Part shown: one piece after another, positions 18,821-48,320 of the stretch
Layout of the letters: each line of letters opens with the position of its first letter
Position numbering within the stretch: position 1 is the first letter of the stretch
NCBI GenBank assembly: GCA_013151235.1
Contig: JAADIO010000032.1
Span: forward strand, 12,923-76,922
Reading direction: 5' to 3'
Origin: Deltaproteobacteria bacterium
GTDB lineage: Bacteria; CG2-30-53-67
DNA: 64,000 bases
Notes under the pieces: generated by a model
Databases searched by the model: none
Told to the model about the DNA's origin: nothing
The model's input: only the letters and a program-made list of their open reading frames with translations
Position numbers and translations under genes: made by a program

Positions 18821-18824
18821 CCCC

Positions 18825-30895: not shown

Positions 30896-30935
30896 TGATT
30901 TCCCGATCATTCAGTTTTCCATGTGTTGCGGAAAC

Positions 30936-30964
30936 TTGAAGTTTGGCGGGTCGCCCTGTATACT
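30936..30964 (+). promoter_or_regulatory. Sigma-70 promoter of the kinase/regulator operon
   Basis: TTGAAG (30936-30941), a 17-bp spacer and TATACT (30959-30964). It lies inside the open frame that could extend upstream of the kinase, so the true start must be downstream, at 30971 or 30983. Confidence 0.6.
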
Positions 30965-30982
30965 CGGATTATGGGGTTGACA

Positions 30983-33475
30983 ATGCACCATCAGTCGGGC
31001 CGGCTTCTGGAGATCCTGGACAGTCTGAATATTCCGCTCCTTCTTCTGGATTCCTCCGGCAAAGTGAAGTCCCACAACGGTATGGTCGAGGAGATCTTCG
31101 GGTATTCCTCCGCCGATCTGATCGGTCTTCCCTCGAATAACCTGATTGCACGATTCATAGCGTCCGAAAGTCCGGTCGGCGTCTCCTCTTCGTCCCCCGA
31201 TCCTTTCCATGCAGATCTTTCTTCCCCCCTGCAACGGGAGGTGACCTGCCGGAGAAAAAACGGTGGGGAATTCCCCGCACAGGTGACTTTCATCCCCTGG
31301 GGGGACGGGACCTTCCGGTTGATGGCGGTTCAGGATGTCTCCGGTCAACGGCGTCTGGAACAGCGTGCCACCCAGCGGACCAAGGAACTGACTCTCTTTA
31401 ATACCTTCGCAGAGATCTTAAGCCGCGGTGGAAAACCCCGCGCGCTCCTGCAGGAGACCGTCGATATGCTTCCCGGGATCTTGGGGATTAAGGCCGCGAT
31501 GATTCACCTACAGGATCAAGAGACCGGGAATCTTGTCCCCGCGGCCCGGCAGGGATTTGACGCTTCCTTTCTGGCTTCGGTAGGGGAGGTGGAACCGGGA
31601 CAGGGGTTGTTCGGGAAGGTCCTGACCTCCGGGCTGCCTCTCCTCGTGGAGAAGGCCTCCGAGGATCCCCGAACGCTCAATTTTGATCTGCATCAGAGCG
31701 GTCTTCAAAGCTTTGCCTCCGTACCGGTTTCTTCAAAAGGCGCCGTCCGGGGGGTCCTGACCGTGGCGAGCCGGCGGGTCTCCTCTTTTACCGCCATGGA
31801 CATGCAACTTCTTGATGCCCTCGGGAGCCAGTTGGGGATCGCCATTGAGAATGCGGAACTGATTGCCCAGCTCAAAGAGAAGATGAACCAGATCGCCCTG
31901 ACCAATGAATTGAGCGGGACGATCAATTCCAGCCTGAGTATCGGCACGATCTTCCGGATGATGGTTTCGGAAATCCGGAAGTTGATTGAATACGACCGTG
32001 CCGGCCTCTTGCTCTACGATGAGAAGAAGGGGAACCTGTTGATCTTCGCCCTCGATACGGGGCTGAAGACGGAGATGACCCGGGGGGTTAAGGCACCCAT
32101 CGAGGGGACCTCGGCCGGTTGGGCCTTAAAGCATAACCGGCCATGGATCAATCGGGACCTGCTCTCGGAGATGCTCTTCCCGCTAGACGGAAAGCTGCGC
32201 GACGAGGGGATTCGCTCGACTATCAGCATTCCTTTGACCCAGGAGAAGAGGCTCGGCGTATTCAACCTCGATAGTCGGGAGGCGGCAAAGTATTCGGAAA
32301 CGGATCTGCAGATCCTTCTGCCGGTGGCGAAACAGATCTCCATCGCGCTGGAGAATGCCCTCCTCTTCGAGGAGATCTCGAGGGAAAAGAAGGAGTGGGA
32401 GAAGACCTTTGATGCATTTACGGACATGGTTTGGATCGACGATCATCGTCAGCGGATCCTTCGGGCGAATCAAGCCCTGCTCCAGGGGGCAGAGGTGACC
32501 ATGGCGGGGCTTTCGGACCTCCATTGCGCGAATCTGCTCGACCGGCTCGGCGTCGGTCCTTCCTGTCTGTGCTGCGAGACCGTAACCACGCAGCGCCAGA
32601 CCTTCCGGGAGGTTCATGGGCGAGAGGGAAAGATCTTCCATTTCTGGGCTTATCCTCTCCTCGACGATGAGGGACAGCTCTATGCCGTCCTTCACTATCT
32701 CAAGGATGTGACGGAACGCAAAAGGCTGGAACAGCAGCTTCTCCGGGCGGACAAGCTTGCTTCCCTGGTGACGCTGGTGGCGGGAATCGCTCATGAGATC
32801 AACAACCCGCTCGGGATTATCGCCGGTTATGCCGAGGCCCTCCTTGATCGTGCCGGAGATCCTGCTCTTCGGGGGATGGAAGCCTTTGAGGATTTTCCCG
32901 AGTATCTGGATACCATCCACAAGGAGATCTTTCGCTGCAAGGAGACCCTGGGAAGTCTCCTGGAGTTTGCCCGGCCCCACGGGAGAAAGTCCCGGGAACT
33001 CGATATCAATGAACTGCTCAAAGAAGTGATCCTCCTGGTGAATCACAAGGCCAAACGTCTTCACTGCCGGATTGAGCATCAGCTCAACCGGGAACTGCCG
33101 AAGATCTGTGCCGAACCGGGGAGTCTGCGACAACTCTTCATGAATATCATCATTAATTCCCTCTACCATACGCCGGAAGGGGGAAAGATCGAGATTACGA
33201 CGGAACTCAACCGGAACGATCCGAAAGAGATGATCCAGGTGGCGATTCGTGACACCGGTCCGGGGATCCGACACGAGGTGATCGACAAGATTTTTGATCC
33301 CTTCTTTACGACCAAACCGGTCGGGGAGGGGACCGGATTGGGGCTTTCCATCTGTCACAAAATTGCAGAGGAACACAACGGGGTGATCGATGTCGAAAGT
33401 GAGGTCGGCCGCGGCACGACCTTCTTTATCAAGCTGCCTGCGAAAGGGAACCATGGCCCGGATACTTGTCGTTGA
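30983..33475 (+). CDS. Multi-sensor histidine kinase (PAS-GAF-GAF-PAS-HisKA-HATPase)
   Basis: An 830-residue soluble kinase with no membrane helix. The order is a PAS domain (about 5-115), two GAF domains (about 130-285 and 305-460), a second PAS-like domain (about 475-590), HisKA with the phosphorylated His604 in GIAHEINNP, and the ATPase domain with N box ([13 protein letters not shown]), G1 (DTGPGI) and G2 (GTGLGLSI). The ATG at 30983 is chosen because a promoter covers earlier starts. It overlaps the response regulator gene by 23 bp and is its likely partner. The signal is unknown; one or both GAF domains may bind a small molecule. Confidence 0.9.
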
Positions 33476-34817
33476 CGACGAAGAACCCTTTCGTCGCCTG
33501 CTGAAAAAAGAACTGACCCGGAAAGGGTTTTCCGTTGAGGTGGCCCCGGAAGGGGAAACGGCGCTGAAACTTTTGAAGGAGAGTGTCTTTGATCTGCTTC
33601 TCCTCGATGTTCTGATGCCGGGACTGGACGGAATTTCCGTGATGAAACGGCTGCGTAAGGACCCGACGGCGCCGCCGGTGATCGTCTTGACGGGGAAGGC
33701 CACGATTGAAACGGCGGTCGAGGCGATGAAGAACGGCGCCTATGACTATCTGACGAAACCCTACAAGCTTGATGAGTTGGAAATCGTCATCAACCGAGCC
33801 TGTGAATTCGGGAATTTGAAACACAAAAGCCGGGTACTTGAGCAGGAGCTGGTTCGAAAAGAATCCAAGGTTGAATTTATCGGGGAAAGCCCGCAGTTCC
33901 AGGCGATTTTGACGCTGATTCGCAAGATCGCCCCCACCGACTCCACGGTTCTTATCCAGGGGGAAAGCGGCACCGGCAAGGAGTTGGTGGCGAATGCCAT
34001 CTGGCATCACAGCCGTCGGAATAATCTGCCTCTTATCGCCCTGAACTGTGCCACCCTTTCCGAAACCCTCATGGAATCGGAACTTTTCGGACATGAAAAA
34101 GGCGCCTTTACCACGGCTTACCGGACCAAGTACGGTATCGTAGAGGTTGCCGATAAGGGGACCCTCTTCCTGGATGAGGTGGCCGAGATGCCGATGGGAC
34201 TCCAGGCCAAGCTCCTCCGCTTTCTTGATCGGGGGGAGTTCCGTCGTGTGGGCGGAAACAAGACCTTGCAGGTCGATGTCCGGATGATTGCTGCGACCAA
34301 CAAGAATCTGGAGGAACGGGTTCGGCGGAAAACCTTTCGGGAAGATCTTTTCTATCGCCTCCATGTGATTAATATCAAGATTCCGCCGCTTCGCGAACGT
34401 CCGGAGGATATCCGGGACATTGCCCTTCATTTTGCCAAACAATATTCCCGCAAAATAGGAAAGTCGGTCTGGAAGATTGACGCCGATGCCCTGGGGATTC
34501 TCCGGCGTTATGCCTGGCCGGGAAATGTTCGGGAGCTGGAAAATGAAATCGAGCGGAGTGTGATCCTCTGTGAAGGCGAGGCGATCGGTGTCCACGACCT
34601 TTCGATCGCCGATCGGGTTGCAACGCCCACCTCCGGGACGCAGCCGATGCTGGAGGAGATCGAGAAGGAGTGTATCCTCAGGGTCCTCCGGGAGACCGGC
34701 GGCAACCAGACCCGGGCCAGCAAAATCCTCGGCATCAACCGTAAAACCCTCTACCTAAAACTTCGCAAATACGGTGCACTTACATCGCAGGATAGCGAGA
34801 TTCCCCCTGAGGTATAG
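33453..34817 (+). CDS. Sigma-54-dependent response regulator, NtrC type
   Basis: A 454-residue activator. The receiver domain (1-120) has acidic Asp8 and Asp9, the phosphate acceptor Asp52 and a conserved TKP Lys. The AAA+ domain (about 140-380) has Walker A GESGTGKE and Walker B LFLDEV. The sigma-54 contact loop reads GAFTTA rather than GAFTGA. The C-terminal Fis-type helix-turn-helix is GGNQTRASKILGINRKTLYLKL. Five candidate sigma-54 promoters lie in this window, so it may activate some of them. It resembles PrsR in layout, but its kinase lacks the membrane domain of PrsK. Confidence 0.93.
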   Translation: MARILVVDDEEPFRRLLKKELTRKGFSVEVAPEGETALKLLKESVFDLLLLDVLMPGLDGISVMKRLRKDPTAPPVIVLTGKATIETAVEAMKNGAYDYLTKPYKLDELEIVINRACEFGNLKHKSRVLEQELVRKESKVEFIGESPQFQAILTLIRKIAPTDSTVLIQGESGTGKELVANAIWHHSRRNNLPLIALNCATLSETLMESELFGHEKGAFTTAYRTKYGIVEVADKGTLFLDEVAEMPMGLQAKLLRFLDRGEFRRVGGNKTLQVDVRMIAATNKNLEERVRRKTFREDLFYRLHVINIKIPPLRERPEDIRDIALHFAKQYSRKIGKSVWKIDADALGILRRYAWPGNVRELENEIERSVILCEGEAIGVHDLSIADRVATPTSGTQPMLEEIEKECILRVLRETGGNQTRASKILGINRKTLYLKLRKYGALTSQDSEIPPEV

Positions 34818-34921: not shown

Positions 34922-34937
34922 TGGCATGGGATTTGCT
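34922..34937 (+). promoter_or_regulatory. Candidate sigma-54 promoter of the methyltransferase operon
   Basis: TGGCAT-N5-TTGCT, with GG at 34923-34924 and GC at 34935-34936. The predicted start near 34948 lies only 3 bases before the ATG at 34951. Either the first gene is translated from a nearly leaderless mRNA, or the match is fortuitous and lies within coding sequence. Confidence 0.55.
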
Positions 34938-34950: not shown

Positions 34951-35313
34951 ATGAACGATATCCTTTTATGCTCATCGGATCCGATCTTCATAAAGAATCT
35001 CTACGGGATTCTCCGGGAGGACGGTTACCGTGTCGATATTGCCGGCCATGCGTCTATGGCCGTCCGGATGGTTTTTGAAAAGAGTTTTGCAGCGGTGATC
35101 CTCGATTCCGATGCTGTCGGTATGTCTTCGGGGGAGGCTGCACGTATCATTTTGAGAGTCATCTCGGGGATCCCTGTAATTCTTGCAGGGGAAAGTCTGT
35201 TACCCGAGGGGGCGTTTTCGATCAGCAAACCTCTGGATCTGGAGGAGGTCCTGGAGGTTCTTCGAACCGTTCGTTTAATTCATTTTCCGGAAAGGAGTGT
35301 GAGCGGCCTATGA
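34951..35313 (+). CDS. Receiver-like single-domain protein
   Basis: A 120-residue protein with the receiver fold: a degenerate acidic pocket (CSSD, Asp10), a conserved Asp52 in VILDSD, and Lys in the SKP motif near residue 100. It has no output domain. The ATG at 34951 begins exactly at the receiver strand; an ATG at 34906 is possible but lies upstream of the promoter match. It overlaps the first methyltransferase gene by 4 bp, so it is part of that operon. It may be a phospho-acceptor or a sensor partner; the role is unknown. Confidence 0.75.
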   Translation: MNDILLCSSDPIFIKNLYGILREDGYRVDIAGHASMAVRMVFEKSFAAVILDSDAVGMSSGEAARIILRVISGIPVILAGESLLPEGAFSISKPLDLEEVLEVLRTVRLIHFPERSVSGL

Positions 35314-36341
35314 CACCACGAGAGATTATTTTGCAGGCCTTTGAAGGGGGGAAGCCCGAGCGGGTGCCGGTTTCTCTCTTCGGTGCCGGCATGTGGAGCA
35401 TCAAGAGTTTTGAAAGCAGTTTCGAGGAGTTGTCGACCGATGCAGCGAAGATGTCGGATATGTTGGTGACCCTGTCGGACAAACTGTTGTGTGATATTGT
35501 CTATGCCGGCTCCGGGTACAACAACTTTCACGCCGCTGCGTTCGGCGGGGAGATCAAGTTTCGTTCCATGGGAGCGCCGGATCTGAAGGAACATCTCGTT
35601 TCCTCCGTGGAGGACATTGAAAAATTTGATCTATCGGCGCTCGACAATGAAGCGACCCTCAATATCGTCAAGGATGCCCTGCATCGTACACGGGAACAGA
35701 TCGGTGACAAATATGTGGTGAGCATGACGGCCTGGGGACCCTTTACCCTCGGGGCACGTTTCGTCGGGGAAGAGACGATGATGAAGGCGACCTTCAAGAA
35801 TCCCGACCTGGTCCACCGGGTCACTGATTTTGCAACGGACCTTCTGATCCATCTTTATGAACCCCTGGTTGATGACGGGACGCTGGAAGTGATCAGTCTG
35901 GCCGATCCGACGGCCTCGGGGGACCTGATTTCCCGCAAGCAGTTTGAAAAGTTTGCCGTTCCCTACCTGAAAAAGTTTACCGACTGGGCCAGATCGAAGA
36001 AGGCGTATACCCTCCTGCACATTTGCGGGAATACGACGGACCGCCTGGATGTGATGCCCGGGACCGGGGCGAGCTGTATCAGCCTGGATCACAAAACCGA
36101 TATCGGGAAGGCCTATGAGGCACTCCACGGAAGGATCTGTTTTGCCGGCAATGTGGATCCTGTCGGTGTCATGCTTCAGGGCTCGGTCGACGATGTGGAG
36201 AGGGCCTGCCGGGAGGTGATCGAAAGGGCCGGCACGGAGGGGGGGTTCGTTCTCATGCCGGGATGCGATATTCCGCCGACCGTCCCTTATGAAAATATTC
36301 GGAAATTCATCCAGGTCGCGCGGGAGTGGAAATTGACATAA
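35310..36341 (+). CDS. MtaA/UroD-family methylcobamide methyltransferase (copy 1)
   Basis: A 343-residue TIM-barrel protein of the uroporphyrinogen decarboxylase superfamily, MtaA/MtbA branch. The zinc ligands of methylcobamide:coenzyme M methyltransferases are present: His237 and Cys239 in HICG, and Cys319 in MPGCD. True HemE lacks this set. The family moves a methyl group between a corrinoid protein and a thiol, classically coenzyme M. Coenzyme M biosynthesis genes lie 6 kb downstream in the same run. It overlaps the receiver gene by 4 bp. Confidence 0.88.
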   Translation: MTPREIILQAFEGGKPERVPVSLFGAGMWSIKSFESSFEELSTDAAKMSDMLVTLSDKLLCDIVYAGSGYNNFHAAAFGGEIKFRSMGAPDLKEHLVSSVEDIEKFDLSALDNEATLNIVKDALHRTREQIGDKYVVSMTAWGPFTLGARFVGEETMMKATFKNPDLVHRVTDFATDLLIHLYEPLVDDGTLEVISLADPTASGDLISRKQFEKFAVPYLKKFTDWARSKKAYTLLHICGNTTDRLDVMPGTGASCISLDHKTDIGKAYEALHGRICFAGNVDPVGVMLQGSVDDVERACREVIERAGTEGGFVLMPGCDIPPTVPYENIRKFIQVAREWKLT

Positions 36342-36494
36342 GGCGAAGAGGGGGTAGTAAGTCCGTGTTGTTCAGGTCCCATTGACCTTGTGAGAGAGGG
36401 GGTTGTGATGGGTACATTCTGGGAAAATCTCAAAAATATGTTTGTGCGGACTGTTCCTCCGGGAGCAGCCGGGCAATCGCAGAAAGGAGCTGCC

Positions 36495-36941
36495 ATGGCT
36501 GACGAAAAGAAGATGACGCTGGAAGAAGTAAATCAGTATATGCAGGAAAAGTGCGGGTTCGTGCCGAGGATGTTCAAGATTATCAATACCGTGACGCCGG
36601 AGCCCGGCCGAACCTTTGCCGATTTCTACGCGAGCATTTTCGGGGAGGGCGCACTTTCCAAGAGCGTCAAGGAATTGATGTTCATGTCCGGTGGTGTCGC
36701 CTACTGTTCGCCTCGCTGCATCATTCATGTCGTACCGGCGATCAATGCCGGTGCAACGTCGGAACAGGTCTTCGAGGCGGCGTCCGTCGGGATGATCCTG
36801 GCCGGTTTTGTCCCGAACGGTCCGGGAATTCCCTATGCCTTTGAATATGCCTTGAAGTGCATTGACATCGACACGAAGTTCCGGAAGGGCGAGGAGTGGG
36901 AATACCTGCCGCCCCCGAAATTTGATCACGGGATTTACTGA
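36495..36941 (+). CDS. Carboxymuconolactone decarboxylase-family (AhpD-like) protein
   Basis: A 148-residue all-helical protein of the CMD/AhpD superfamily. The redox motif is CSPRCIIH, a CX3CX2H variant of the AhpD CX2CX3H. The ATG at 36495 is chosen for its AAAGGAG site; another in-frame ATG at 36408 with a GAGGGGG element would add 29 residues, and both are plausible. It sits between two methyltransferase genes. It could act as a thiol-disulfide or reductant partner to the methyl system; that is inference. Confidence 0.75.
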   Translation: MADEKKMTLEEVNQYMQEKCGFVPRMFKIINTVTPEPGRTFADFYASIFGEGALSKSVKELMFMSGGVAYCSPRCIIHVVPAINAGATSEQVFEAASVGMILAGFVPNGPGIPYAFEYALKCIDIDTKFRKGEEWEYLPPPKFDHGIY

Positions 36942-36994: not shown

Positions 36995-37027
36995 ATTTTA
37001 CCCATTTTTAATTTAAGGATGATACAT

Positions 37028-37990
37028 ATGTTCACCTTTGAAACGGAACAAAAGGTTTGCAAGATCGGCGGATTAAAGGTTGGAGGCCGACCGGCGGAAA
37101 ATCCCCCTCTCCTGATTGCCTCCATGTTTCATAACAAGGACCGAATCCTGCAGGATCGTAAAGGGAATTTCGACCGCGTCCGGGCGACAGAACTGATCCG
37201 GAAGCAGGAAGAGCTGACCGAAGCCACCGGCATTCCCGGTATGGTGGCCATGATGGCCAATTCCGCCGGGGAAGCAAAGATCTATATCGATTTCTTTGTG
37301 GAAACCACCGACATGCCCTTCGCCATCGATATGTGGGTTGCCGAGAAACGGATGGCCGCGACGGAATATGTGGCGAAGTTAGGTCTGCAGGACCGGTTTG
37401 TCTATAACAGTATTACCCCCTGGGACAAGGACATTCCGGGGCAGGTGCAGCGGGTCAAAGAGCTCGGCATCAAACACGTATTTGTCCAGGCCTTTGATGA
37501 TGCCGATCAGTCTCCGAAAGGACGGCTGACCTCATTGGAAAAATTGCTTGATCAGGGAGCGGGTGATTTCGAGTCGGTCCTTGTCGATTCCTCGGTGATG
37601 AATCTTCCCGCTGCCTCTTTCTCCATGCTGGCAAACCGGATGATCAAAGAGAAGTTAGGGCTCCCCTGCGGAAGCGCCTATTCCAATGGCACCCACATGT
37701 GGAAAGAGGCCAAGGAGATCTGGGGGCTCGACGGTTTCAAGGCGATGGATGCTGTGGCCCAGGGGATGTCGACGGCCCTCTGGTCGGATTTTAATTTTTA
37801 CGGTCCCATCGTGACGGCGCCCCGGATCTTCCCCGGTGTGGCCACGGCAAACATCCTGCTTTCGACCCTGGTCTTTGATGAAACCGGGGAGGTCTCGGAA
37901 AATGAAGACCTGCCGATCCGGAAGCACTTTTCGGAATTTCTTGAGAAGATGATCGCCGGTGGTGCAAGAAAAAAGGCGCAGGCCCGATAA
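37028..37990 (+). CDS. MtrH-like methyltetrahydropterin/folate methyltransferase
   Basis: A 320-residue TIM-barrel protein of the MtrH family. MtrH in methanogens moves methyl from tetrahydromethanopterin to a corrinoid; bacterial homologues such as MtgA-type proteins use tetrahydrofolate. Conserved stretches include VGGRPAENPPLLIASMF, NSAGEAKIYIDFFVE and GLPCGSAYSNGTHMW. The ATG at 37028 has AAGGA 6 bases upstream. No other Mtr subunits are present, so it is probably soluble and works with the corrinoid protein encoded at 39061. It would link the methyl pool to one-carbon metabolism. Confidence 0.88.
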   Translation: MFTFETEQKVCKIGGLKVGGRPAENPPLLIASMFHNKDRILQDRKGNFDRVRATELIRKQEELTEATGIPGMVAMMANSAGEAKIYIDFFVETTDMPFAIDMWVAEKRMAATEYVAKLGLQDRFVYNSITPWDKDIPGQVQRVKELGIKHVFVQAFDDADQSPKGRLTSLEKLLDQGAGDFESVLVDSSVMNLPAASFSMLANRMIKEKLGLPCGSAYSNGTHMWKEAKEIWGLDGFKAMDAVAQGMSTALWSDFNFYGPIVTAPRIFPGVATANILLSTLVFDETGEVSENEDLPIRKHFSEFLEKMIAGGARKKAQAR

Positions 37991-38023: not shown

Positions 38024-39046
38024 TTGACGGAAACCATGACATCAAGAGAACGGGTACTGAGACTGTTTCGGGGGGAACCGACGGATCGTCCGGCCTGTTT
38101 CAGCGGGATGGGTAATGCGACAACGGAAGGGCTGAACCAGCTCGGCTACAAGTTTGCCCAGGTTCATCTCGATGCGAAACAGATGGCGGAGACGGCCATG
38201 ACGACGCCCCGGCTTTTCGGGTTTGACGCCTGCGTCCTTCCGTTTGACCTCTGTGTCGAAGCGGAAGCGATGGGCGCAAGGATCAATACCTATTCGAACT
38301 CGGACGACCTGCTCTATCCCACGATCAAAGAGAAGGTAATCCATGGCGAAGAGGAGATGGAGATCAACCTCCCCTCCGACCTGGTCACGCGCGGGCGGAT
38401 CCCCCTCATGAAGGAGGCGATCGGGATCGCCAGGGAAACCATCGGAGAGACCGTGGCGATCGGTTCTTACCTGCTCGGACCGTTTACGCTCGCCGGTCAG
38501 ATCATGGAACTGAACGATCTGCTGAAACTTTCTTTCAAGAAACCGGACAAGGTCGGGAAACTTCTGGCCGATCTGACCTGCGTGATCGTGGCGGTTGCGA
38601 AGGAGTATGAAGCGGCCGGTGTTGACTACCTGACGGTACGGGAGATGGGTGCAACCTCCGACGTGTTGAGCCCCAGGGTTTTCAAGAGCCTGATACTGCC
38701 CCATCTCAAGAATATTTTCGAACAGATCAGTGTTCCCAGTGTGCTGCATATCTGCGGCAAGACGAACAACATCGTCGTTCCGATGGTGGAAACGGGTGCG
38801 ACGGCCATCAGTGTTGACCAGAAGAATGATGTGGTCGACAGCCGGAAAAAGCTCGGATCCGATGCCCTGATTTTCGGGAACTACGACCCCTATAACGTGC
38901 TTGTTTCGGGTACGCCGGAACTGGTCAAAGAGGCGATGCAAAAGTGTTTGGAAGACGGCGTCAGTGCCGTCTGGCCCGGCTGTGATATCTGGCCCACGGT
39001 GCCGGCGGAGAATTTTAAGGCCATGATGGAAACCATGAATGAATAG
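38024..39046 (+). CDS. MtaA/UroD-family methylcobamide methyltransferase (copy 2)
   Basis: A 340-residue paralogue of the first MtaA-like protein. The zinc ligands are His242 and Cys244 in HICGKT and Cys320 in WPGCD. The start is taken as TTG at 38024 behind AGAAGGAG; an ATG 12 bp later is possible. It sits 15 bp before the corrinoid protein gene. The two copies are clearly diverged, so they probably act at opposite ends of the methyl transfer or on different thiols. Confidence 0.88.
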   Translation: MTETMTSRERVLRLFRGEPTDRPACFSGMGNATTEGLNQLGYKFAQVHLDAKQMAETAMTTPRLFGFDACVLPFDLCVEAEAMGARINTYSNSDDLLYPTIKEKVIHGEEEMEINLPSDLVTRGRIPLMKEAIGIARETIGETVAIGSYLLGPFTLAGQIMELNDLLKLSFKKPDKVGKLLADLTCVIVAVAKEYEAAGVDYLTVREMGATSDVLSPRVFKSLILPHLKNIFEQISVPSVLHICGKTNNIVVPMVETGATAISVDQKNDVVDSRKKLGSDALIFGNYDPYNVLVSGTPELVKEAMQKCLEDGVSAVWPGCDIWPTVPAENFKAMMETMNE

Positions 39047-39060: not shown

Positions 39061-39756
39061 ATGGCAACTGAAGAGAGAACCCGGGAAATCCTGGAGAAAA
39101 TGGAGAAAGCCGTGATTGAGTATGACGAAGATGCGGCCAAGGAGGGTGCCCAGGCGGCCCTCGATGAAGGGGTCAATCCCAATGATGCCATCTTCGACGG
39201 TCTGGTCAGCGGGATGCAGGAAGTCGGCAAGCTCTTTGAGGCCGAAGAGTATTTCGTCCCGGAGCTGCTCATGTGCGCCGATGCCCTTTATGCCGGTCTC
39301 GATATCTTAAAACCCCATGTGAAACAGCTCGACCTGGGGGTGAAAGGCTCGGTGGTGATCGGTACCGTGGAGGGAGATGTTCACGATATCGGGAAGAACA
39401 TCGTGAAGATGATGTTCGATGTCGCCGGGTTTGAGGTCCATGACCTGGGACGGGATGTGCCGCTGGATCAGTTTGTTGAGGAACAGATCAAAACCGATTC
39501 CGAACTGGTCTGCCTCTCCGCCATGATGACGACGACCATGATGGGGATGCAGAAGGTCATCGAGGACCTGAAGAAGAAGAATCCCGATATCAAGATCATG
39601 ATCGGCGGTGCTCCCGTTTCCGGTGATATCGCCGAGAAATGGGGAGCGGACGGCTATGCCGATGACGCGACCAATGCCCTCGCAGATGCCATCAACATGG
39701 TCAGCTCTCTGAAAAAGATGAAGGAAGAAGCGGAAGCCAGGGAAAAACGGAAGTGA
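39061..39756 (+). CDS. Corrinoid (B12-binding) methyl carrier protein
   Basis: A 231-residue methyltransferase corrinoid protein (MtaC/MtbC/MttC type). A helical cap (about 1-90) precedes the Rossmann-like B12 domain with the cobalt-ligating His108 in DVHDIGKN, and later the MMTTTM and GGAPVS elements. The C-terminal tail is charged. It accepts methyl groups from one TIM-barrel enzyme and passes them to another. A GGAGG site precedes the ATG, and the stop overlaps the next gene by 4 bp. Confidence 0.96.
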   Translation: MATEERTREILEKMEKAVIEYDEDAAKEGAQAALDEGVNPNDAIFDGLVSGMQEVGKLFEAEEYFVPELLMCADALYAGLDILKPHVKQLDLGVKGSVVIGTVEGDVHDIGKNIVKMMFDVAGFEVHDLGRDVPLDQFVEEQIKTDSELVCLSAMMTTTMMGMQKVIEDLKKKNPDIKIMIGGAPVSGDIAEKWGADGYADDATNALADAINMVSSLKKMKEEAEAREKRK

Positions 39757-40418
39757 GCAGTGCATTCTTGAAAAAGATGCTCCTCGGTTCCGGGGCGACC
39801 GTGGTGGGTGTGGCGGAACTGGATGCGTATCTTGACGGAGAGATCCGTCATCTCAACCGAGGGGTTTCCATCGCGGTGGACCGGACGCTTCGGGAAGATA
39901 CCCTGAAACATCTGGGCCGGCTGCAGAAAAAAGTGGTCCGCTATCTGAAAGGGAAGGGATTCCGTACCCTCAGTATCCCCCCTGATTCGGACCGCATCCG
40001 GAATAAGTTTGTTGCCGAACTTTATTCCCTTTTGACCCACAAGATGGCAGCCACCTGCGCGGGGATCGGCTGGATCGGGCGGAATGGGTTACTGATCAGT
40101 CCCCATTTCGGGCCGCGGCTTTCCCTGGCGACGGTCCTGACCGATGCGCCCCTGAAGAGCGATATTCCCTATGAACAGAGCCGTTGCGGCAATTGCCGGC
40201 TTTGTGTTGACTACTGCCCGTCGAAGGCGATCACGGGCAAAACCTGGTCCCGGCGGGACCCTTACAGCGGCCTGGTCAAGCCCCACCGGTGTCGTGTACA
40301 CAAAGAGGGGGCCCGGGGAGTGACGGATCGGCCCAATTGCGGTCTCTGCCTGCAGATCTGCCCCTACGGGCGGGCGAAAGGGAGGACCAAACCGAAAGAT
40401 GTTATGGAGATTGTATAA
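39753..40418 (+). CDS. QueG-like Fe-S protein of the methyltransferase cluster
   Basis: A 221-residue protein resembling the C-terminal half of epoxyqueuosine reductase and reductive dehalogenase-like proteins. Two 4Fe-4S motifs are visible: CGNCRLCVDYCP and CGLCLQICP, the latter completed by an upstream Cys. It begins with GTG overlapping the corrinoid gene stop. Its position between corrinoid protein and activase suggests electron delivery to reactivate Co(II), rather than queuosine synthesis. Such proteins are often seen beside bacterial corrinoid methyltransferases. Confidence 0.82.
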   Translation: MSSAFLKKMLLGSGATVVGVAELDAYLDGEIRHLNRGVSIAVDRTLREDTLKHLGRLQKKVVRYLKGKGFRTLSIPPDSDRIRNKFVAELYSLLTHKMAATCAGIGWIGRNGLLISPHFGPRLSLATVLTDAPLKSDIPYEQSRCGNCRLCVDYCPSKAITGKTWSRRDPYSGLVKPHRCRVHKEGARGVTDRPNCGLCLQICPYGRAKGRTKPKDVMEIV

Positions 40419-40420: not shown

Positions 40421-42397
40421 ATGAGCAGCAAATATAAAGTGAATTTTCAGCCCTCGGGAAGTCGGGGGGAAGTGGATGCAGGGAAAACCCTCCTTGATGC
40501 GGCCCAGCGTTTAGGGGTTGATCTGGAATCAGTCTGTGGCGGCAAGGGGACCTGCGGGAAATGCAAGGTCCGTGTTGAGGAAGGATATTTTGAAAAAGAT
40601 GCCATGGAATCAAGAATGTCCCATCTGTCTCCTCTGACGGACGTGGAACGCAAATTCATCAAACCGGAAGACGGACCCCGAATGCGTTTGGCCTGTGCCG
40701 CCGAGGTGCGGGGGGATGTGAAACTTTTCGTGCCGGAAAAGTCCCGTGCCGGGAAACAGATCGTTCGCAAGGCCGCAAAAGATATTACGATCGCCCTCGA
40801 CCCCGCCGTGAAAAAATATTGTATCCGGCTGGATGCCCCGACCCTGCACGATCTTTCCAAGGGGGATCTTGAACGGATTCTGGGGGCGCTGAAAATGGAG
40901 TACAACCTGGAAAACCTTGCCATAGACTATCTGGTCCTCCAGAAGCTCCAGGATATTCTTCGGGCCGGGAACTGGGAGGTGACGGTTTCGGTCTGGAAAG
41001 GCAAAGAGATCATCAAGGTGGAGCCGGATTTTGTGGACGTCTCCTACGGTCTGGCCGTGGATGTCGGGACGACGACGGTGGCAGCCTATCTGTGTGATCT
41101 GAACACGGGCAAGGTGCTTAACACCGAATCGATGATGAATCCCCAGGTCCCGTACGGCGAAGATGTCATGTCGAGGATTACTTACGCCATGACCCATGAC
41201 GACGGTCTTGCGATCATGCAGAAGGCAATCATCGAGGGCTTAAACGATCTGATTGAGAAGATTACCGCCGACATCCGTTCCAACGGAACGCCCGGCGGTA
41301 CCTCCATCGTCGATATGACGGTGGTTTTTAATACCGCCATGCATCACATCTTCCTGGGATTCAACCCGGTCTACATCGGACGGTCTCCCTTTATTCCTGC
41401 CGTGCAGGATTGTGTTGATCTCAAGGCACGGGATCTGGGACTTCAAATCAATGAAGCTTCCTACATTCATGTCCTTCCCATTGAGGCCGGTTTTGTCGGC
41501 GCCGACAATGTGGGGGTTCTCATCGCCGAAGAGCCGTACAATTCCGAGGACAATGTCCTGATTATCGACATCGGGACGAACGGTGAACTCCTCCTCGGGA
41601 ACAAGCATGCGGTCTGTTCCACTTCCTGCGCTACGGGACCGGCCTTTGAAGGGGCCCAGATCAAGTTCGGAATGCGAGCCGCCCCGGGAGCGATTGAAAA
41701 GGTCCGGATCGATCCGGAGACGAAAGAGCCACAGTACAAGGTGATCGGCAAGGCCGACTGGCATACCCATATCAAGGATGTCAATGCCAAGGGGATCTGC
41801 GGTTCCGCCATCATCGACGTGATTGCCGAGATGTTCAAGGCGGGAGTCATCGACAAGTCCGGGAAATTCGTCAAGGATCTTGACATACCCCGCATCCGGA
41901 AGGATGCCGACGGCAAACCGGAGTACGTCCTGGCCTGGGCGGATGAAACCTCCATCGGGAGCGACATCACCGTGACGCAGGGGGATGTCCGGGCGTTGCA
42001 GCTCGCCAAGGGGGCACTCTACGCCGGGGCGAAACTGATGATGCAGAAGATGGGGATCGAAAAACTCGACCGGGTGGTTCTGGCGGGGGCCTTCGGGAGT
42101 CATATCAATACGGAGGCCTCGATGACCCTCGGGATGTTCCCCGATTGTGCCATCGAAAAGGTCTATGCCGTGGGGAATGCCGCCGGCGACGGGGCGATCA
42201 TGGCCCTGCTGAACCTGGGGAAACGACGTGAGGCCGGCGAAAAGGCCCGGTGGGTCCGGTTCCTGGAGATTGCCGTGGAGCCGGAATTTGAAAAGGAATT
42301 CATGAAGGCGATGCATATTCCGCACATGAAGGATCCTTTTCCCAATCTCAAGTCGTTGCTGGAGAAGGACCATTTGCCGGTGACGATCAAGGGGTGA
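40421..42397 (+). CDS. Reductive activase of corrinoid proteins (RACo/RamA family)
   Basis: A 658-residue protein that uses ATP to reduce inactive Co(II) corrinoid back to Co(I). The N-terminal ferredoxin domain has CX5CX2C (CGGKGTCGKC) plus a further Cys in RLACAAE, that is, a 2Fe-2S cluster as in bacterial RACo rather than the C-terminal clusters of archaeal RamA. The ASKHA ATPase part shows AVDVGTTTVAAY, DIGTNGELLLGN and LAGAFGSHIN. The ATG at 40421 is 2 bp after the QueG-like stop. It serves the corrinoid protein of this operon. Confidence 0.93.
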   Translation: MSSKYKVNFQPSGSRGEVDAGKTLLDAAQRLGVDLESVCGGKGTCGKCKVRVEEGYFEKDAMESRMSHLSPLTDVERKFIKPEDGPRMRLACAAEVRGDVKLFVPEKSRAGKQIVRKAAKDITIALDPAVKKYCIRLDAPTLHDLSKGDLERILGALKMEYNLENLAIDYLVLQKLQDILRAGNWEVTVSVWKGKEIIKVEPDFVDVSYGLAVDVGTTTVAAYLCDLNTGKVLNTESMMNPQVPYGEDVMSRITYAMTHDDGLAIMQKAIIEGLNDLIEKITADIRSNGTPGGTSIVDMTVVFNTAMHHIFLGFNPVYIGRSPFIPAVQDCVDLKARDLGLQINEASYIHVLPIEAGFVGADNVGVLIAEEPYNSEDNVLIIDIGTNGELLLGNKHAVCSTSCATGPAFEGAQIKFGMRAAPGAIEKVRIDPETKEPQYKVIGKADWHTHIKDVNAKGICGSAIIDVIAEMFKAGVIDKSGKFVKDLDIPRIRKDADGKPEYVLAWADETSIGSDITVTQGDVRALQLAKGALYAGAKLMMQKMGIEKLDRVVLAGAFGSHINTEASMTLGMFPDCAIEKVYAVGNAAGDGAIMALLNLGKRREAGEKARWVRFLEIAVEPEFEKEFMKAMHIPHMKDPFPNLKSLLEKDHLPVTIKG

Positions 42398-42407: not shown

Positions 42408-42725
42408 ATGACCCGTGTGAAAATCGACCCGGGCGTCTGTGGTTTTCCCGCTCTCGTGACGGTCGAAAAAAAGGACAGGCAGCACTTTCGGGTAACGATC
42501 GAGTCCAATTGTGAAATGGTACGGAAATTGGGAGAGGAAATTGCATCCCTGACGATGCAGGATGCCTTCATCCGGTTTTCCGATAACCGGGTCTATGAGA
42601 AGGCCTCAACCTGTCTGAAACACACGGCCTGTCCGGTCCCGTCGGGCATCCTGAAGGCCCTGGAGGTTGAGGCCGGTCTGGCGGTGCCGCGGAACGTAAC
42701 GGTGGAATTTCTTGCCGGGGAGTGA
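42408..42725 (+). CDS. Small Cys-containing protein, DUF6951-like
   Basis: A 105-residue protein that begins VKIDPGVCGF and has Cys11, a Cys in ESNCEM and a C-x5-C pair (CLKHTAC). It resembles the small DUF6951 family. It is placed between the corrinoid activase and cysteate synthase genes (10 and 5 bp gaps), so it belongs to the operon. The function is unknown. The four cysteines could bind a metal or carry a sulfur. A part in the last thiol-forming step of coenzyme M synthesis is conceivable but unsupported by direct evidence. Confidence 0.75.
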   Translation: MTRVKIDPGVCGFPALVTVEKKDRQHFRVTIESNCEMVRKLGEEIASLTMQDAFIRFSDNRVYEKASTCLKHTACPVPSGILKALEVEAGLAVPRNVTVEFLAGE

Positions 42726-42730
42726 CAGTG

Positions 42731-43987
42731 ATGAGCGACTATCTTCTGCATTGCCGGAAATGCGGTGCTCTTTTGCAGCCGCAAGAGTCCGCTTCCGGGG
42801 TTCATTGTCCCGATGCCTTGATGAAAAGTGAATTTCCCGACCGGCGGTTCCGCCTTGAGGGGCGTCGGGGGATCTGGCGCTTCAACTGGCTTCCGGTGCA
42901 TGCACCCCGTGAAGATACCGCCGCACCGGTGGTTTATCACGCGGAGGGGCTGGGGCGGCGTCTTGGACTTCGGCATCTCTTTGTCGTATTCAACGGTTTC
43001 CGGCCGGAAAAGGGGGCGGAGATCGAGACCTGTACCTTCAAAGAGTTCGAGGCCGAGGTTGTTCTGCAAAACGCACGGGAACTTGGAAAGGGCGGCCTCG
43101 TCGTCGCCTCGGCGGGGAATACCGCCCGCGCCTTTGCCCACCTTTCGATTCGGACCGATTTCCCCGTGTTCATTGTGGTTCCACGCATGTGTCTTCATGA
43201 GATGTGGTTTCTGAAGTCGAAGGAGTCCGTTCCGACGGCTGTCCTGCAGGACGGTGACTATGCCGACGCCATCGATGTGGCCGAGCGGATCGCCCGGATT
43301 TCAGGTATTCCCTTCGAAGGAGGGGTACGCAATTCGGCCAAGCGGGACGGACTCGGTGTCGTACTGATGGAAGCGGTCTCCTTCCTCGGCCGCCTGCCCG
43401 ATGCCTATTTTCAGGCAGTCGGGAGCGGCGCCGGGGCGGTGGCCACCTGGGAGATGGCGGAACGGTTTTTGCGGGACGGCCGTTTCGGGAACCGGCTTCC
43501 CCGTCTCCACCTGGCACAGAATCTCCCCTTTGCACCCATGTTTCATGCCTGGAGACGGGGGGAACGGAATCTGAAACCTGAGGACCTTGATCCGGGCCTG
43601 ATTGAGAAGATTTCCACCCGGGTTCTGTCCAGTCGTTATCCCGCCTATTCGATTCTGGGGGGGGTCTACGATGCCTTGACGGCATCCGGGGGGAACATGT
43701 ACGGGATTACCAACGGAGGGATGGCCGAGGCCCGGACGCTCTTCGAAGAAACGGAAGGGGTCGATATCGTTCCCGCGTCGGCCATTGCCCTGGCGGCACT
43801 GAAAGAGGCCGTAGCGGCGGAAGAGGTCTCTCCCGACGAGCTGATCCTGCTCAATATCACCGGGGGTGGGGAAAGGGCCATCCGGCGTGCGGGACGTGCC
43901 GTCCCGGTGGCGGGAGACGCAATCTCGAAAAATATTACGGATGATGAAATCGAAGAACTTTTATGCACAGTCCTGAAAAAGAGCTGA
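42731..43987 (+). CDS. Cysteate synthase (coenzyme M biosynthesis)
   Basis: A 418-residue PLP enzyme of the threonine-synthase fold, closely patterned on the Methanosarcina cysteate synthase: PEKGAEIETCTFKEFEAE with the PLP-binding Lys104, ASAGNTARAFAH, and PDAYFQAVGSGAG. An N-terminal CRKC motif is also shared in style. The enzyme converts O-phosphoserine and sulfite to cysteate, the first dedicated step of one coenzyme M route. The next gene encodes a sulfopyruvate decarboxylase and overlaps by 25 bp, which strengthens the call over a plain threonine synthase. The ATG at 42731 has GGGGAG 8 bases upstream. Confidence 0.88.
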   Translation: MSDYLLHCRKCGALLQPQESASGVHCPDALMKSEFPDRRFRLEGRRGIWRFNWLPVHAPREDTAAPVVYHAEGLGRRLGLRHLFVVFNGFRPEKGAEIETCTFKEFEAEVVLQNARELGKGGLVVASAGNTARAFAHLSIRTDFPVFIVVPRMCLHEMWFLKSKESVPTAVLQDGDYADAIDVAERIARISGIPFEGGVRNSAKRDGLGVVLMEAVSFLGRLPDAYFQAVGSGAGAVATWEMAERFLRDGRFGNRLPRLHLAQNLPFAPMFHAWRRGERNLKPEDLDPGLIEKISTRVLSSRYPAYSILGGVYDALTASGGNMYGITNGGMAEARTLFEETEGVDIVPASAIALAALKEAVAAEEVSPDELILLNITGGGERAIRRAGRAVPVAGDAISKNITDDEIEELLCTVLKKS

Positions 43988-45099
43988 TTTCGATTCTGAA
44001 AGGGGCGGGCGTCGATCTTCTAGCGACCCTTCCCTGTGACCGGGTGCGCAACCTGATCGCCCTTGCGGATGCATCGATTGACCGCATCCCTCTGACCCGG
44101 GAAGAAGACGGCGTCGGGATTTGTGCCGGAGCGGCCCTGGGCGGGCGGCGGCCGGCCATGATTGTTCAAAGCTCCGGGATCGGCAATATGATCAACGCCC
44201 TTCTCTCCCTGACCGGATTCTATGAACTTCCCTTGGCACTTTTCGTCAGTCAGCGGGGAGTCTATAAGGAGGGGATCGACGCCCAGGTTCCGATGGGCAA
44301 GGTCCTGCCGGGGCTTTTTGAATCCGTGGGGATCGGTTACACTCTGATCGACCGGTCCGAAGCGATCCCCGCCATCGGGAAGGAACTGGAGTCTCTCTAC
44401 CGGGAGAAACGGATCCATGCTTTCCTGCTCAGCCCGGCCCTCTGGGAAGGCTCCCCCCTGGAGATTTCCCAGAGCCTCAAACGCCGCCATTGTGAAGCGA
44501 TCGATCCTGAACGGGGTCGGGAGAATCCGGCCCCGGTCCTGACCCGCTATGGGGTCCTTTCGACCCTCTGTCCCGAACTGGAAGGGCAGGCGGTGATCTG
44601 CAATCTGGGGGTCCCGTCGAAGGAACTTCATGCCCTCCTTCCCCAACCATCGAATTTCTACATGCTGGGCAGCATGGGATTGGCGACGCCCATCGGTCTC
44701 GGTGTGGCCTTCTCAACGGACAAACCGGTTTTCGTCATTGACGGGGACGGCAGTCTGCTTATGAATCCCGGGACCCTGGCGACGGTCGCCATGGCCCGAC
44801 CGGGGAACCTGACCATTATTGCTGTTGACAATGCCTCCTACGGTTCCACGGGGGATCAACCGACCCTGACGGCCGGTTGTGTCGATCTGGAACTGGTGGC
44901 CCGTGGATTCGGTATCTGTAACTCTGTGAAGGCTGCGTCCCGGGAGGAGCTGCGGGAGGCGTTGCAGACCCCCTTCGGCGGTGCCCTCTTTGTCCATGCC
45001 CTTGCCCTGCCCGGAAATGCCGCCGTCCCCAATATCCCCCTGGGTGCCCGGGAGATCAAGGAGGGGTTCCAGGCGTTCCTGGAATCCGGGAGGTTATAG
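43963..45099 (+). CDS. comDE: Sulfopyruvate decarboxylase, fused ComD-ComE
   Basis: A 378-residue thiamine diphosphate enzyme with pyrimidine-binding (ComD-like, 1-175) and diphosphate-binding (ComE-like, 190-378) domains in one chain. The TPP motif starts with GDG (261-263) and ends VDNASYGST; the catalytic Glu is in TREEDGVG. It decarboxylates sulfopyruvate to sulfoacetaldehyde. Phosphonopyruvate decarboxylase is of similar size, but no phosphonate genes are near and the upstream neighbour is cysteate synthase. An aminotransferase to make sulfopyruvate would have to be encoded elsewhere. Confidence 0.85.
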   Translation: MHSPEKELISILKGAGVDLLATLPCDRVRNLIALADASIDRIPLTREEDGVGICAGAALGGRRPAMIVQSSGIGNMINALLSLTGFYELPLALFVSQRGVYKEGIDAQVPMGKVLPGLFESVGIGYTLIDRSEAIPAIGKELESLYREKRIHAFLLSPALWEGSPLEISQSLKRRHCEAIDPERGRENPAPVLTRYGVLSTLCPELEGQAVICNLGVPSKELHALLPQPSNFYMLGSMGLATPIGLGVAFSTDKPVFVIDGDGSLLMNPGTLATVAMARPGNLTIIAVDNASYGSTGDQPTLTAGCVDLELVARGFGICNSVKAASREELREALQTPFGGALFVHALALPGNAAVPNIPLGAREIKEGFQAFLESGRL

Positions 45100-45134: not shown

Positions 45135-45974
45135 TCAAGGATCGGGGAGACGGCCACCGTCCGGAGTTGAAAAGTGATCGGGGTTTTTCCGATACTTTTC
45201 CGGGATGGTTGCGATCCTCGGTACCGGGCTCAAGGGGTATTGATCGACCAGCAGCGTGCAGCCGTAACTCTTCCGTAATTGTTCCGCCGTCAAGACCTCT
45301 CCGGGGCGTCCGGTCTTTTCAATTTCCCCCTCCTTCAGAAGAAGAAGGCGGTCTCCGTAGAGGGCCGCCAGGTTCAGGTCATGGGAAATCATGATCACCG
45401 TGATCCGCCGGGTGCGGCGGAGCCGTTCCATCAGATCCATAATGCGGGATTGGTGGGAAGGATCGAGGGAGGCCGTCGGTTCATCGAGAAAGATGATCCG
45501 GGGTTGCTGGCAGATGGCCCGGGCGATCATGACTCGCTGCCGTTCTCCGCTGCTTAACTGATCCAGCCGTCTTTCCGCCAGGTGTGTAATGTCGGTAAAG
45601 TGCATCGCCTCTTCGGCAATTCGGTAATCCTCACGTTTTTCCATGCTCCAAAGCCCGAGATGAGGAGAGCGGCCCATCAGGACCGTTTCCGTAACGGGAA
45701 AGGGGAAATCAAGGGGGACCTGCTGTGGGACCACGGCGAGAAGACGGGAGAGGGATCGCCGTGAATAATGATGAAGCGCTTTGCCCAGAATGTTAATCTC
45801 CCCCCTTTGCGGCTGGATCATGCCGGCGCAGGCCTTGAGTAGTGTGGTTTTTCCCGCGCCGTTGGGGCCGATGATGATGAAGAATTCCTCCTCCGGGACG
45901 TGGAAGGTGAGCCCGTGAAGAATCCCTTTATGTGCATAGTCGAGATGGAGGTTTTCGACGGAGAGGGCGGTCAT
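45135..45974 (-). CDS. btuD: Cobalamin ABC transporter ATPase
   Basis: A 279-residue ABC ATPase. Walker A is GPNGAGKTT, the Q loop is VPQQ, the signature is LSSGERQ and Walker B is IIFLDEPTASLD, followed by the H-loop ISHD. It is the third gene of the B12-riboswitch operon and overlaps btuC by 4 bp. The C-terminal 40 residues extend beyond the ABC domain. It converges on comDE with a 35-bp gap. Confidence 0.92.
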   Translation of the reverse strand: MTALSVENLHLDYAHKGILHGLTFHVPEEEFFIIIGPNGAGKTTLLKACAGMIQPQRGEINILGKALHHYSRRSLSRLLAVVPQQVPLDFPFPVTETVLMGRSPHLGLWSMEKREDYRIAEEAMHFTDITHLAERRLDQLSSGERQRVMIARAICQQPRIIFLDEPTASLDPSHQSRIMDLMERLRRTRRITVIMISHDLNLAALYGDRLLLLKEGEIEKTGRPGEVLTAEQLRKSYGCTLLVDQYPLSPVPRIATIPEKYRKNPDHFSTPDGGRLPDP

Positions 45975-46978
45975 TGGTTTGCTCTCCAGAGAAGGTAGAC
46001 AAAGAGGGGCGCTCCGATCATGGCCGTGATGATTCCCACGGGCATTTCCCCTCCGACCGACAGGATGCGTGCCAGGAGGTCGCAGAGAATCAGGTAGGTT
46101 GCCCCCCCCAGGATGGAAGCGGGGATCAGCAGGCGATGATCCGGTCCCAGCACCAGCCGCAGGAGGTGCGGAATCACCAGTCCGACGAATCCCACCAGGC
46201 CGGACTGACAGACCACCAGGCTGACCATCAACGACGTCAGGACCAGGAGAACCAGGGTGACGGTTTTGACATTTACCCCCATGGAGAGAGCGCTTTCCTT
46301 TCCCATTACGAGGAGATTCATCGGACGGGCCAGCAGAAAGATGACCAGGAAACAGAGCAGGATCGGAAAGAGGACCGGCAGTTGCCGGGTGCTGACCCGG
46401 GAGAGATCTCCCATCAGCCAGAAGAGAATCTGTTGGACCTGTTCGGATCGGGTAATCGAGATCAGGAAGAGAATGACGGCGGCGCAGAAGGCATTCATCA
46501 TGACGCCTCCGAGGAGCAGTGCATCCCTGCTCTGCCGGGGCCGCCCCATGACGAGCAGGAGGATCAGGCCCAGGACCGCCATACTGCCGGTGAAGGCCGC
46601 CAGGGGGACTCCCGGAAAAGGGGAAAGCCCGGCCAGCAGCCCGCCGATCGCCCCGATTGCCGAACCGCCCGAAATGCCGAGGATGTAGGGTTCGGCCAGG
46701 GGGTTTCGCAGGAGTGCCTGAAAAACCAGCCCGCCGAGGGAGAGGGTGGAACCGACGGCGGCTGCCAGGATGACCCGGGGAATCCGGATGCGCCGGATGA
46801 TGGTGGCGGCGATTGAGTTCTGATCTCCGTAGCCGGCCAGGATGGCGAGAGTCCCGGACAGGTCGCTGCCGGAAGAGCCCATGGAGACGCCGAGGAAGGC
46901 CGCGATCATCAGCAGTGTGCCGAAGAAGAGTGTGATCGTGATGAGCTTCCGGGGGAGAGGATGGAACCTAACGTTCAT
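45971..46978 (-). CDS. btuC: Cobalamin ABC transporter permease
   Basis: A 335-residue FecCD/BtuC permease with about ten membrane helices. Family landmarks include RIPRVILAAAVG, GLVFQALLRNPLAEPYILG, and GLVGFVGLVIPHLLR, the coupling region. The ATG at 46978 is chosen; the frame extends to 47086, but that part overlaps btuF by 119 bp. Even so, 11 bp of overlap remain. It imports corrinoids needed by the neighbouring methyltransferases. Confidence 0.92.
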   Translation of the reverse strand: MNVRFHPLPRKLITITLFFGTLLMIAAFLGVSMGSSGSDLSGTLAILAGYGDQNSIAATIIRRIRIPRVILAAAVGSTLSLGGLVFQALLRNPLAEPYILGISGGSAIGAIGGLLAGLSPFPGVPLAAFTGSMAVLGLILLLVMGRPRQSRDALLLGGVMMNAFCAAVILFLISITRSEQVQQILFWLMGDLSRVSTRQLPVLFPILLCFLVIFLLARPMNLLVMGKESALSMGVNVKTVTLVLLVLTSLMVSLVVCQSGLVGFVGLVIPHLLRLVLGPDHRLLIPASILGGATYLILCDLLARILSVGGEMPVGIITAMIGAPLFVYLLWRANQ

Positions 46979-47933
46979 CGGTGCGCTTCCCTTTTTTCGC
47001 AACCTCCGGGTGAATAATCGCCAGCAGGGTCTCCAGTCCGTCGACCAGGTGGGGAGTCGGACGATCAAAGAGGTCGGAATCGACAAGATAGATCTTTCCC
47101 TTCCGGACGGCCGGGATTTGCGGCCACTTCCGCCAGCTCCCTTTCAGCCATTGCGGGGTATGACCGCCCGCCATGGAACTGATGATGACAATCTCCGGTT
47201 GAAGGGTCAGAACCTTCTCCCAGGTCAACCGGGGATAAGGGGCCTTCCCTGCGGTCACATTGGTTCCCCCTGCCAGGGTGATCAGTTCGTTGATGGAGGT
47301 CCGGCTTCCCACGGAGACCATCGGTTCGGCATCAATCTGAAAAAAGACACGAGGTCGGGTGTGGGTCCGGGCGACACGGGAGCGGACCCGGTCGATCCGC
47401 CGTTCCATATTCCGAACGATTTCCTCCGCACGGGTGGAAGCGTTCAGAAGATCTCCGATCCCTTTGATAGTCGTCATGATCCCCTGAAGGTTTAATGGAT
47501 TGACGACATAAACCGGGATTCCGAGGGCCTCAATTCGCGCCACGATATATTTGGGATTGCCGTCTTTGATGGCCAGGCAGAGATCGGGGTGGAGAGCAAC
47601 GATCCGTTCCAGGTCGAGGTGGACATAGGAGCCGACCCGGGGCAGGGCACGGGCCGCTTCCGGGGTTGTACTGAATCGGGTGACCCCTTTGAGGCGGGGG
47701 CCTTTGTTCAGAAGAAAAATGATTTCCGTGAGACTCGGTGCCAAGGCGATCACCCGCCGGGGGGAGGCCGGCACATCGACCCTGCGGCCCACCGGATCCG
47801 TGAGCGTACGGGCTGAGGCAATGGGAAGGAAAAGTTGGAGTGCGAGGAAGATCACCGGCAGGAGTATGCCGGGGGAAACTCTCCGAAAAGAGCCCTGTCG
47901 TCGATGGAGAATGTGCAGGAACGCAGGTATCAT
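46968..47933 (-). CDS. btuF: Cobalamin-binding periplasmic protein
   Basis: A 321-residue substrate-binding protein of the BtuF/FhuD class. The signal peptide covers about residues 1-41 (IFLALQLFLPIASA). The fold starts with TDPVGRRVDVPASPRRVIALAPS, and conserved Glu residues for docking to BtuC appear in both lobes. No lipobox Cys is seen, so it is probably soluble in the periplasm. It is the first gene after the cobalamin riboswitch. Confidence 0.9.
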   Translation of the reverse strand: MIPAFLHILHRRQGSFRRVSPGILLPVIFLALQLFLPIASARTLTDPVGRRVDVPASPRRVIALAPSLTEIIFLLNKGPRLKGVTRFSTTPEAARALPRVGSYVHLDLERIVALHPDLCLAIKDGNPKYIVARIEALGIPVYVVNPLNLQGIMTTIKGIGDLLNASTRAEEIVRNMERRIDRVRSRVARTHTRPRVFFQIDAEPMVSVGSRTSINELITLAGGTNVTAGKAPYPRLTWEKVLTLQPEIVIISSMAGGHTPQWLKGSWRKWPQIPAVRKGKIYLVDSDLFDRPTPHLVDGLETLLAIIHPEVAKKGKRTDER

Positions 47934-48005: not shown

Positions 48006-48067
48006 GATGTCCCTTTTTATCCACAGAACCGGTCGGTGAATCTCTGACCTCGAAGATTCGGCCGCTC

Positions 48068-48240: not shown

Positions 48241-48320
48241 CTTTACTTGAAAAACCCTGCAGAGTCAAGTAGAAAAAGAGGTTCGGAAAGTTCATCTGCG
48301 ATGAAGGGAATTCGAATTGC

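Follow-up and report, generated by a model that had tools for sequence, protein, structure and literature searches.

A sigma-54-controlled bacterial operon predicted to join archaeal-type coenzyme M synthesis to corrinoid-dependent methyl transfer

A 64,000-nucleotide stretch of contig JAADIO010000032.1 (hereafter the window), from the Deltaproteobacteria bacterium assembly GCA_013151235.1 (GTDB phylum CG2-30-53-67), carries an operon in which a cysteate synthase and a fused sulfopyruvate decarboxylase (ComDE) are encoded together with a corrinoid methyltransferase system (Table 1). With a probability of roughly 0.6, we read this operon as a sigma-54-controlled system for coenzyme M (CoM)-dependent methyl transfer in an anaerobic bacterium without methyl-CoM reductase (MCR). 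The sulfonate genes are best read as bacterial use of the archaeal (Methanosarcinales-type) route to CoM as far as sulfoacetaldehyde; gene content suggests that this little-known lineage likely synthesises CoM, that one of the two UroD-fold enzymes (UroD2) probably uses it, and that CoM is probably the dedicated partner of the operon's B12-dependent methyl transfer. We base this reading on the family assignments of cysteate synthase and ComDE, a phylogenetic tree, the recurrence of the operon in five MAGs, the co-occurrence of its genes in related genomes and in a distant bacterium (G341), the subfamily models and zinc motif of UroD2, a single PF02607 protein, the presence of DUF6951 in M. acetivorans, corrinoid uptake genes and a riboswitch downstream, and the position of metF beside a co-occurring gene. 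Each enzyme belongs to a known family; it is their combination that is unexpected.

Table 1. Operon genes and flanking features, numbered from the first letter of the window.
Feature	Position	Strand	Evidence
PAS/GAF histidine kinase	30923..33475	+	PAS, two GAF, HisKA, HATPase_c; first of two-component pair before operon
NtrC-type sigma-54 response regulator	33459..34817	+	Response_reg, Sigma54_activat, HTH_8; syntenic in ES_M_CG2-30-53-67 (L010) and B_NIT_04 (L048)
Sigma-54 -24/-12 promoter-like site TGGCATGGGATTTGCT	34922..34937	+	11/12 consensus positions
Small receiver-like ORF, first gene past promoter	34951..35313	+	Response_reg 21.4 bits, below gathering score
UroD1, corrinoid methyltransferase with a UroD fold and an HxC..C zinc motif	35310..36341	+	PF01208 207.8 bits
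AhpD/carboxymuconolactone-decarboxylase-like protein with CxxC	36390..36941	+	PF02627 24.2 bits
MtrH-like methyl-THF:corrinoid methyltransferase	37019..37990	+	NF002142 333.7 bits (cut-off 287); PF02007
UroD2, predicted MtaA/CmuA-type methylcobalamin:thiol (CoM) methyltransferase	38024..39046	+	TIGR01463 238.6 (cut-off 235.4); NF004889 256.4 (cut-off 244)
Methyltransferase corrinoid protein	39061..39756	+	B12-binding, B12-binding_2
QueG/RDH-like 4Fe-4S protein, probable electron donor	39753..40418	+	Fer4_16; partial QueG match
RACo/AcsV-type ASKHA corrinoid activase	40421..42397	+	RACo_C_ter 321.6 bits; AcsV model 491, below cut-off 800
DUF6951	42408..42725	+	PF22263 113 bits
Cysteate synthase (phosphoserine + sulfite to cysteate)	42722..43987	+	TIGR03844 448.7 bits (cut-off 324.9)
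Fused ComD-ComE sulfopyruvate decarboxylase	43963..45099	+	TIGR03845 and TIGR03846 matches
BtuFCD-like corrinoid uptake genes	45135-47933	-	
Cobalamin riboswitch	48058-48244	-	104.7 bits

A preliminary description of the window had named its PLP enzyme a cysteate synthase and its TPP enzyme a fused sulfopyruvate decarboxylase overlapping it by 25 bp; the cysteate synthase and the overlap were borne out, and the decarboxylase identity is partly supported by its model scores. The cysteate synthase, for which an alternative ATG start (the one taken in the preliminary description) lies at 42731, exceeds the cut-off of TIGR03844, as do its homologues in the phylum and in G341 (427-468 bits), and its nearest solved relative is deposited as 'cysteate synthase' (PDB 9k3c, 301 bits; the highest-scoring threonine synthase reaches 52). 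Threonine synthase was rejected as an identity by both model scores (best 68.9 bits, cut-off 303) and a maximum-likelihood tree of small sampling, with long branches between its two sides, in which the window enzyme groups with its relatives' cysteate synthases and 9k3c (100/100) and the five threonine synthases included, of which the genome itself supplies two, form a separate group (100/100 support). ComDE exceeds the cut-off for ComD (TIGR03845, 179.2 bits; cut-off 147.95), lies slightly below that for ComE (TIGR03846, 206.2; 221.5) and falls well short of the phosphonopyruvate decarboxylase model (191.1; 312.5). All six of its homologues match both the ComD and ComE models, and by these scores sulfopyruvate decarboxylase fits the enzyme better than phosphonopyruvate decarboxylase. 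The two genes share exactly 25 bp (43963-43987), as they do at three further loci (L009, L010, L014; 28 bp in L012), and are probably translationally coupled.

The methyl-transfer genes also fall into known families. UroD2 exceeds two MtaA/CmuA subfamily cut-offs and has its best PDB match in MtaA (4ay7, 156.7 bits), whereas UroD1 remains below both (mtaA_cmuA 176.5, cut-off 235.4; NF004889 171.1, cut-off 244). An HxC..C zinc motif that aligns with that of MtaA 4ay7 is invariant in both enzymes across five genomes. Neither reaches the MtaA equivalog cut-off of 400 (NF040654; UroD2 242.1, UroD1 146.1), and the thiol used by UroD2 could therefore be other than CoM. The MtrH-like protein likewise misses the mtrH equivalog cut-off (168.9 against 271.4). 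Apart from the corrinoid protein, no protein with a PF02607 cap domain was found in the genome, and the simplest reading is that MtrH and both UroDs use it in common. The AhpD-like protein is kept at loci L010, L012, L048 and L049. In ES_M_CG2-30-53-67 (L010:16257-18026, 18187-19221) we also observed a 589-aa protein without a Pfam match, whose neighbour carries a Ni_insertion domain, together with a second paralogue of UroD1 that is 60% identical. Two MtaA-type methyltransferases, an MtrH-like protein, a corrinoid protein and an activase had been listed at the outset; the last three are in place, but only UroD2 qualifies as MtaA/CmuA-type, and the list had missed DUF6951, the AhpD-like and QueG-like Fe-S proteins, the sigma-54 promoter and the two-component system.

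From the small receiver-like ORF to ComDE, all genes follow the promoter on one strand in the order of Table 1. Comparable sigma-54 sites lie 378-399 bp upstream of the UroD1 ATG in all five genomes; none of 300 Markov shuffles matched the quality of the window site, and at most one in 300 was equally good in four of the five, SZUA-242 (L012) having the weaker match (13/300). The open frame of the small receiver-like ORF is kept in five genomes, and the histidine kinase is syntenic in B_NIT_04 (L048), with a partial kinase in L010. Convergent to the 3' end of the operon are BtuFCD-like genes for corrinoid uptake, accompanied by a cobalamin riboswitch. Misbinned archaeal DNA is an unlikely source of the operon, given the sigma-54 regulator and promoter, bacterial-type neighbours and identical synteny in MAGs of separate records.

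Five MAGs, some of them labelled Nitrospirae, contain the module, whose range is probably centred on GTDB phylum CG2-30-53-67. Gene order between UroD1 and ComDE is intact in ES_M_CG2-30-53-67 (L010, on a contig shared with L013) and SZUA-242 (L012), and is retained, although divided between two contigs, in Dive96_bin10.193 (L009/L049, genome also of L011), inside MtrH, and in B_NIT_04 (L048/L014), after DUF6951; a contig scan with narrow patterns found four loci. Among eight genomes of the phylum, cysteate synthase, DUF6951, MtrH and a TauA-like protein were all present in three (G000, that of the window, G001 and G005) and all absent from five (G002, G003, G004, G006 and G007), with G003 and G005 differing for all four despite belonging to one genus. 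For any two genes, such a coincidence (3/8) would be expected in 1 in 56 cases if the genomes were independent; they are related, and the support is correspondingly weaker. Outside the phylum, approximately 378 bacterial genomes were sampled and G341 alone exceeded the cysteate synthase cut-off; there, ComDE adjoins cysteate synthase, a TauA-like gene lies one gene further and MtrH lies elsewhere. A match in G304 (163 bits, below the cut-off and in an unrelated context) was left out of the counts.

The TauA-like gene encodes an NMT1/TauA-type binding-protein homologue with invariant His and Cys, apparently without a signal peptide (G000:C55:48372-49325, equivalent to L025:8373-9326; L009:1992; L026:8444; L048:9935; L020:12304). 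It adjoins metF in three of the genomes and in the window's own genome lies elsewhere than the operon. An approximately 195-aa protein without a Pfam match (L025:9342-9929, L009:2967-3554, L026:9360-9995, L048:15442-15999) adjoins it in three genomes, and a CobW-type GTPase was seen near this protein in L009, L026 and L048 and not in L025. Elsewhere, a plasmid of Streptomyces sp. NBC_01340 (L057, 9001-10125) carries an unannotated cysteate synthase homologue (395.9 bits) adjoining a large NRPS gene, where it perhaps supplies cysteate for a natural product.

From these genes we propose that cysteate synthase would combine phosphoserine with sulfite to give cysteate, that a presumed general aminotransferase would convert cysteate to sulfopyruvate, and that ComDE would decarboxylate this to sulfoacetaldehyde. 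A thiol-introducing step would then yield CoM, catalysed either by the genome's single COG1900 homocysteine-type sulfurtransferase or by an unrecognised enzyme, perhaps with sulfur fed by DUF6951. MtrH would link methyl-THF to the single corrinoid protein by methyl exchange, and UroD2 would do so between the corrinoid protein and CoM; UroD1 may act on another methyl donor or thiol, and oxidised corrinoid would be reactivated by RACo together with the Fe-S protein. The net effect would be methyl exchange between methyl-THF and CoM by soluble, non-pumping enzymes, with no part for MCR. By established chemistry, a methyl group passes downhill from methyl-tetrahydropterin to CoM, and soluble enzymes would therefore tend to accumulate the methyl group on CoM. 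The direction of flow and the physiological role are inferred, as are CoM as the product and the specificity of UroD2; the gene identities, their conservation and co-occurrence and the lack of an mcrA match are observed.

No recognised enzyme was found for the thiol-introducing step. M. acetivorans completes CoM with MMP16 and may have a homocysteine-type COG1900 enzyme in reserve (PMC12068725). The CoM synthase ComF/MMP16 (TIGR03287) was not found in the window's genome, in which the only COG1900 protein (117.8 bits, cut-off 363.95) is of the homocysteine type and neighbours an NIL/ferredoxin-type protein and a cysteine synthase. DUF6951 is a plausible candidate sulfur donor, as an IscU/SufE-like sulfur or Fe-S carrier. 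Its cysteines 11, 35 and 75 are invariant, in a spacing that we take to resemble that of IscU, and M. acetivorans alone among 14 controls encodes it. Structural matches to its predicted model, which is of moderate confidence (pLDDT 68), are mainly IscU/SufU/NifU/SufE (Z 4.5-6.3; no Foldseek match below E 0.001), a weak hint that may reflect a common arrangement alone. More tentatively, a lineage without MCR could possess a complete CoM pathway of its own, its last step being unrecognised and involving DUF6951 as an IscU-like carrier of sulfur and possibly the TauA-like protein. A soluble methyl-THF:CoM methyltransferase would then yield methyl-CoM as a true metabolic intermediate or end product.

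The preliminary description had already read the operon as supplying CoM for methyl transfer with no methyl-CoM reductase in view. The gene identities, the lack of an mcrA match (PF02249) in a 99%-complete genome when the model did detect both methanogen controls, and the joint conservation of sulfonate and corrinoid genes in five MAGs support that idea in part; no recognised CoM synthase (MMP16) was found, and only one of the two UroDs qualifies as MtaA/CmuA-type. Against the CoM reading we also count the ComE score slightly under its cut-off, the lack of an identified methyl-CoM consumer, the small number of related genomes, and the roles outside CoM synthesis that cysteate synthase and ComDE each have in other bacteria.

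Foremost among the alternatives, and in our view unlikely, is that the sulfonate genes yield a different small sulfonated product, such as isethionate, taurine or a sulfonolipid, and that the methyltransferase genes perform ordinary THF-linked demethylation. Sulfonolipid producers provide known examples of bacterial cysteate synthases (PMC11211663), and the Streptomyces homologue beside an NRPS gene, the THF dependence of bacterial MtrH-type enzymes and the missing CoM synthase all fit such a product. Among the operon genes, no cysteate fatty acyltransferase for sulfonolipid synthesis was recognised. Sulfonolipids, however, do not require ComDE. Moreover, the overlapping cysteate synthase and ComDE genes close a conserved methyltransferase operon, gain or loss of cysteate synthase goes together with that of DUF6951 and MtrH, and UroD2 is MtaA/CmuA-like, all of which argue against a non-CoM product.

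It is also rather improbable that the operon makes CoM for the UroDs to activate something other than a plain methyl group, in alkyl or thioether chemistry; the disulfide would then be handled by the AhpD-like protein, joined in two relatives by HdrDE-like proteins. In its favour are genes for an HdrE-like and an HdrD-like protein (two CCG domains) that lie between DUF6951 and cysteate synthase in SZUA-242 (L012:8067-9999) and immediately 5' of cysteate synthase in B_NIT_04 (L014:50-2117), and it agrees with the thiol-activating zinc motif of both UroDs and the AhpD-like CxxC protein in each copy checked. HdrDE-like pairs are nonetheless common in anaerobes, and MtrH indicates one-carbon chemistry. 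HdrDE was rejected as a core part of the module for the window's genome, where it is absent from the operon and the best HdrD counterpart is only 28% identical. Breakdown of cysteate or sulfopyruvate, as in roseobacters, is very improbable: the plasmid-borne comDE of Leisingera and Sulfitobacter are 38-42% identical, but cysteate synthase is a synthetic enzyme and no further breakdown gene was recognised within the operon.

CoM is treated as a hallmark of archaeal methane and alkane metabolism and of a few alkene-oxidising bacteria. If the CoM reading is correct, an archaeal cysteate route joined to a folate-linked corrinoid methyltransferase in a bacterial operon would widen the range of CoM chemistry and offer methyl-CoM a possible MCR-independent role. 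DUF6951, the TauA-like cytosolic protein and the CobW GTPase would become candidates for steps of CoM metabolism that are poorly understood even in archaea, and CoM genes in metagenomes should not by themselves be taken as evidence of methanogens.

Among known systems, the Xcb pathway of Xanthobacter uses other enzymes and serves aerobic alkene and epoxide metabolism. It is reportedly a bacterial route to CoM (Wu et al. 2022, cited in PMC12068725). Both bacteria are predicted to make CoM, here by the archaeal cysteate route and in connection with methyl transfer. With the MtaABC/MtbA systems of methanogens the operon shares a UroD-fold zinc enzyme, a corrinoid protein and an activase, but it has an MtrH partner for THF and lacks MCR and a substrate-specific MtaB-type gene. 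Bacterial MtgBC-MtgA and related THF-linked corrinoid systems likewise combine an MtrH-family enzyme, a corrinoid protein and a RACo activase; here two zinc-motif UroDs and cysteate synthase-ComDE are added, and MtrH scores 151.8 bits against MtgA (cut-off 550). A literature search, with most subscription papers outside its reach, returned no description of this gene combination. The mlp gene clusters (PMC10418091) resemble it in placing SCMT/MtaA homologues in non-methanogens, and the searchable portion of that paper's text does not mention cysteate synthase, MtrH or CoM biosynthesis. A close parallel to the CoM route is found in M. acetivorans, in which adjacent genes for cysteate synthase and comDE (MA3297-MA3298) are both required for CoM (PMC12068725). 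The route (MA3297-MA3299) likewise proceeds through cysteate synthase and then ComDE, and DUF6951 occurs in both organisms; in contrast, the operon described here belongs to a bacterium in which neither MMP16/ComF nor mcrA was found, and its CoM genes sit within a corrinoid methyltransferase operon.
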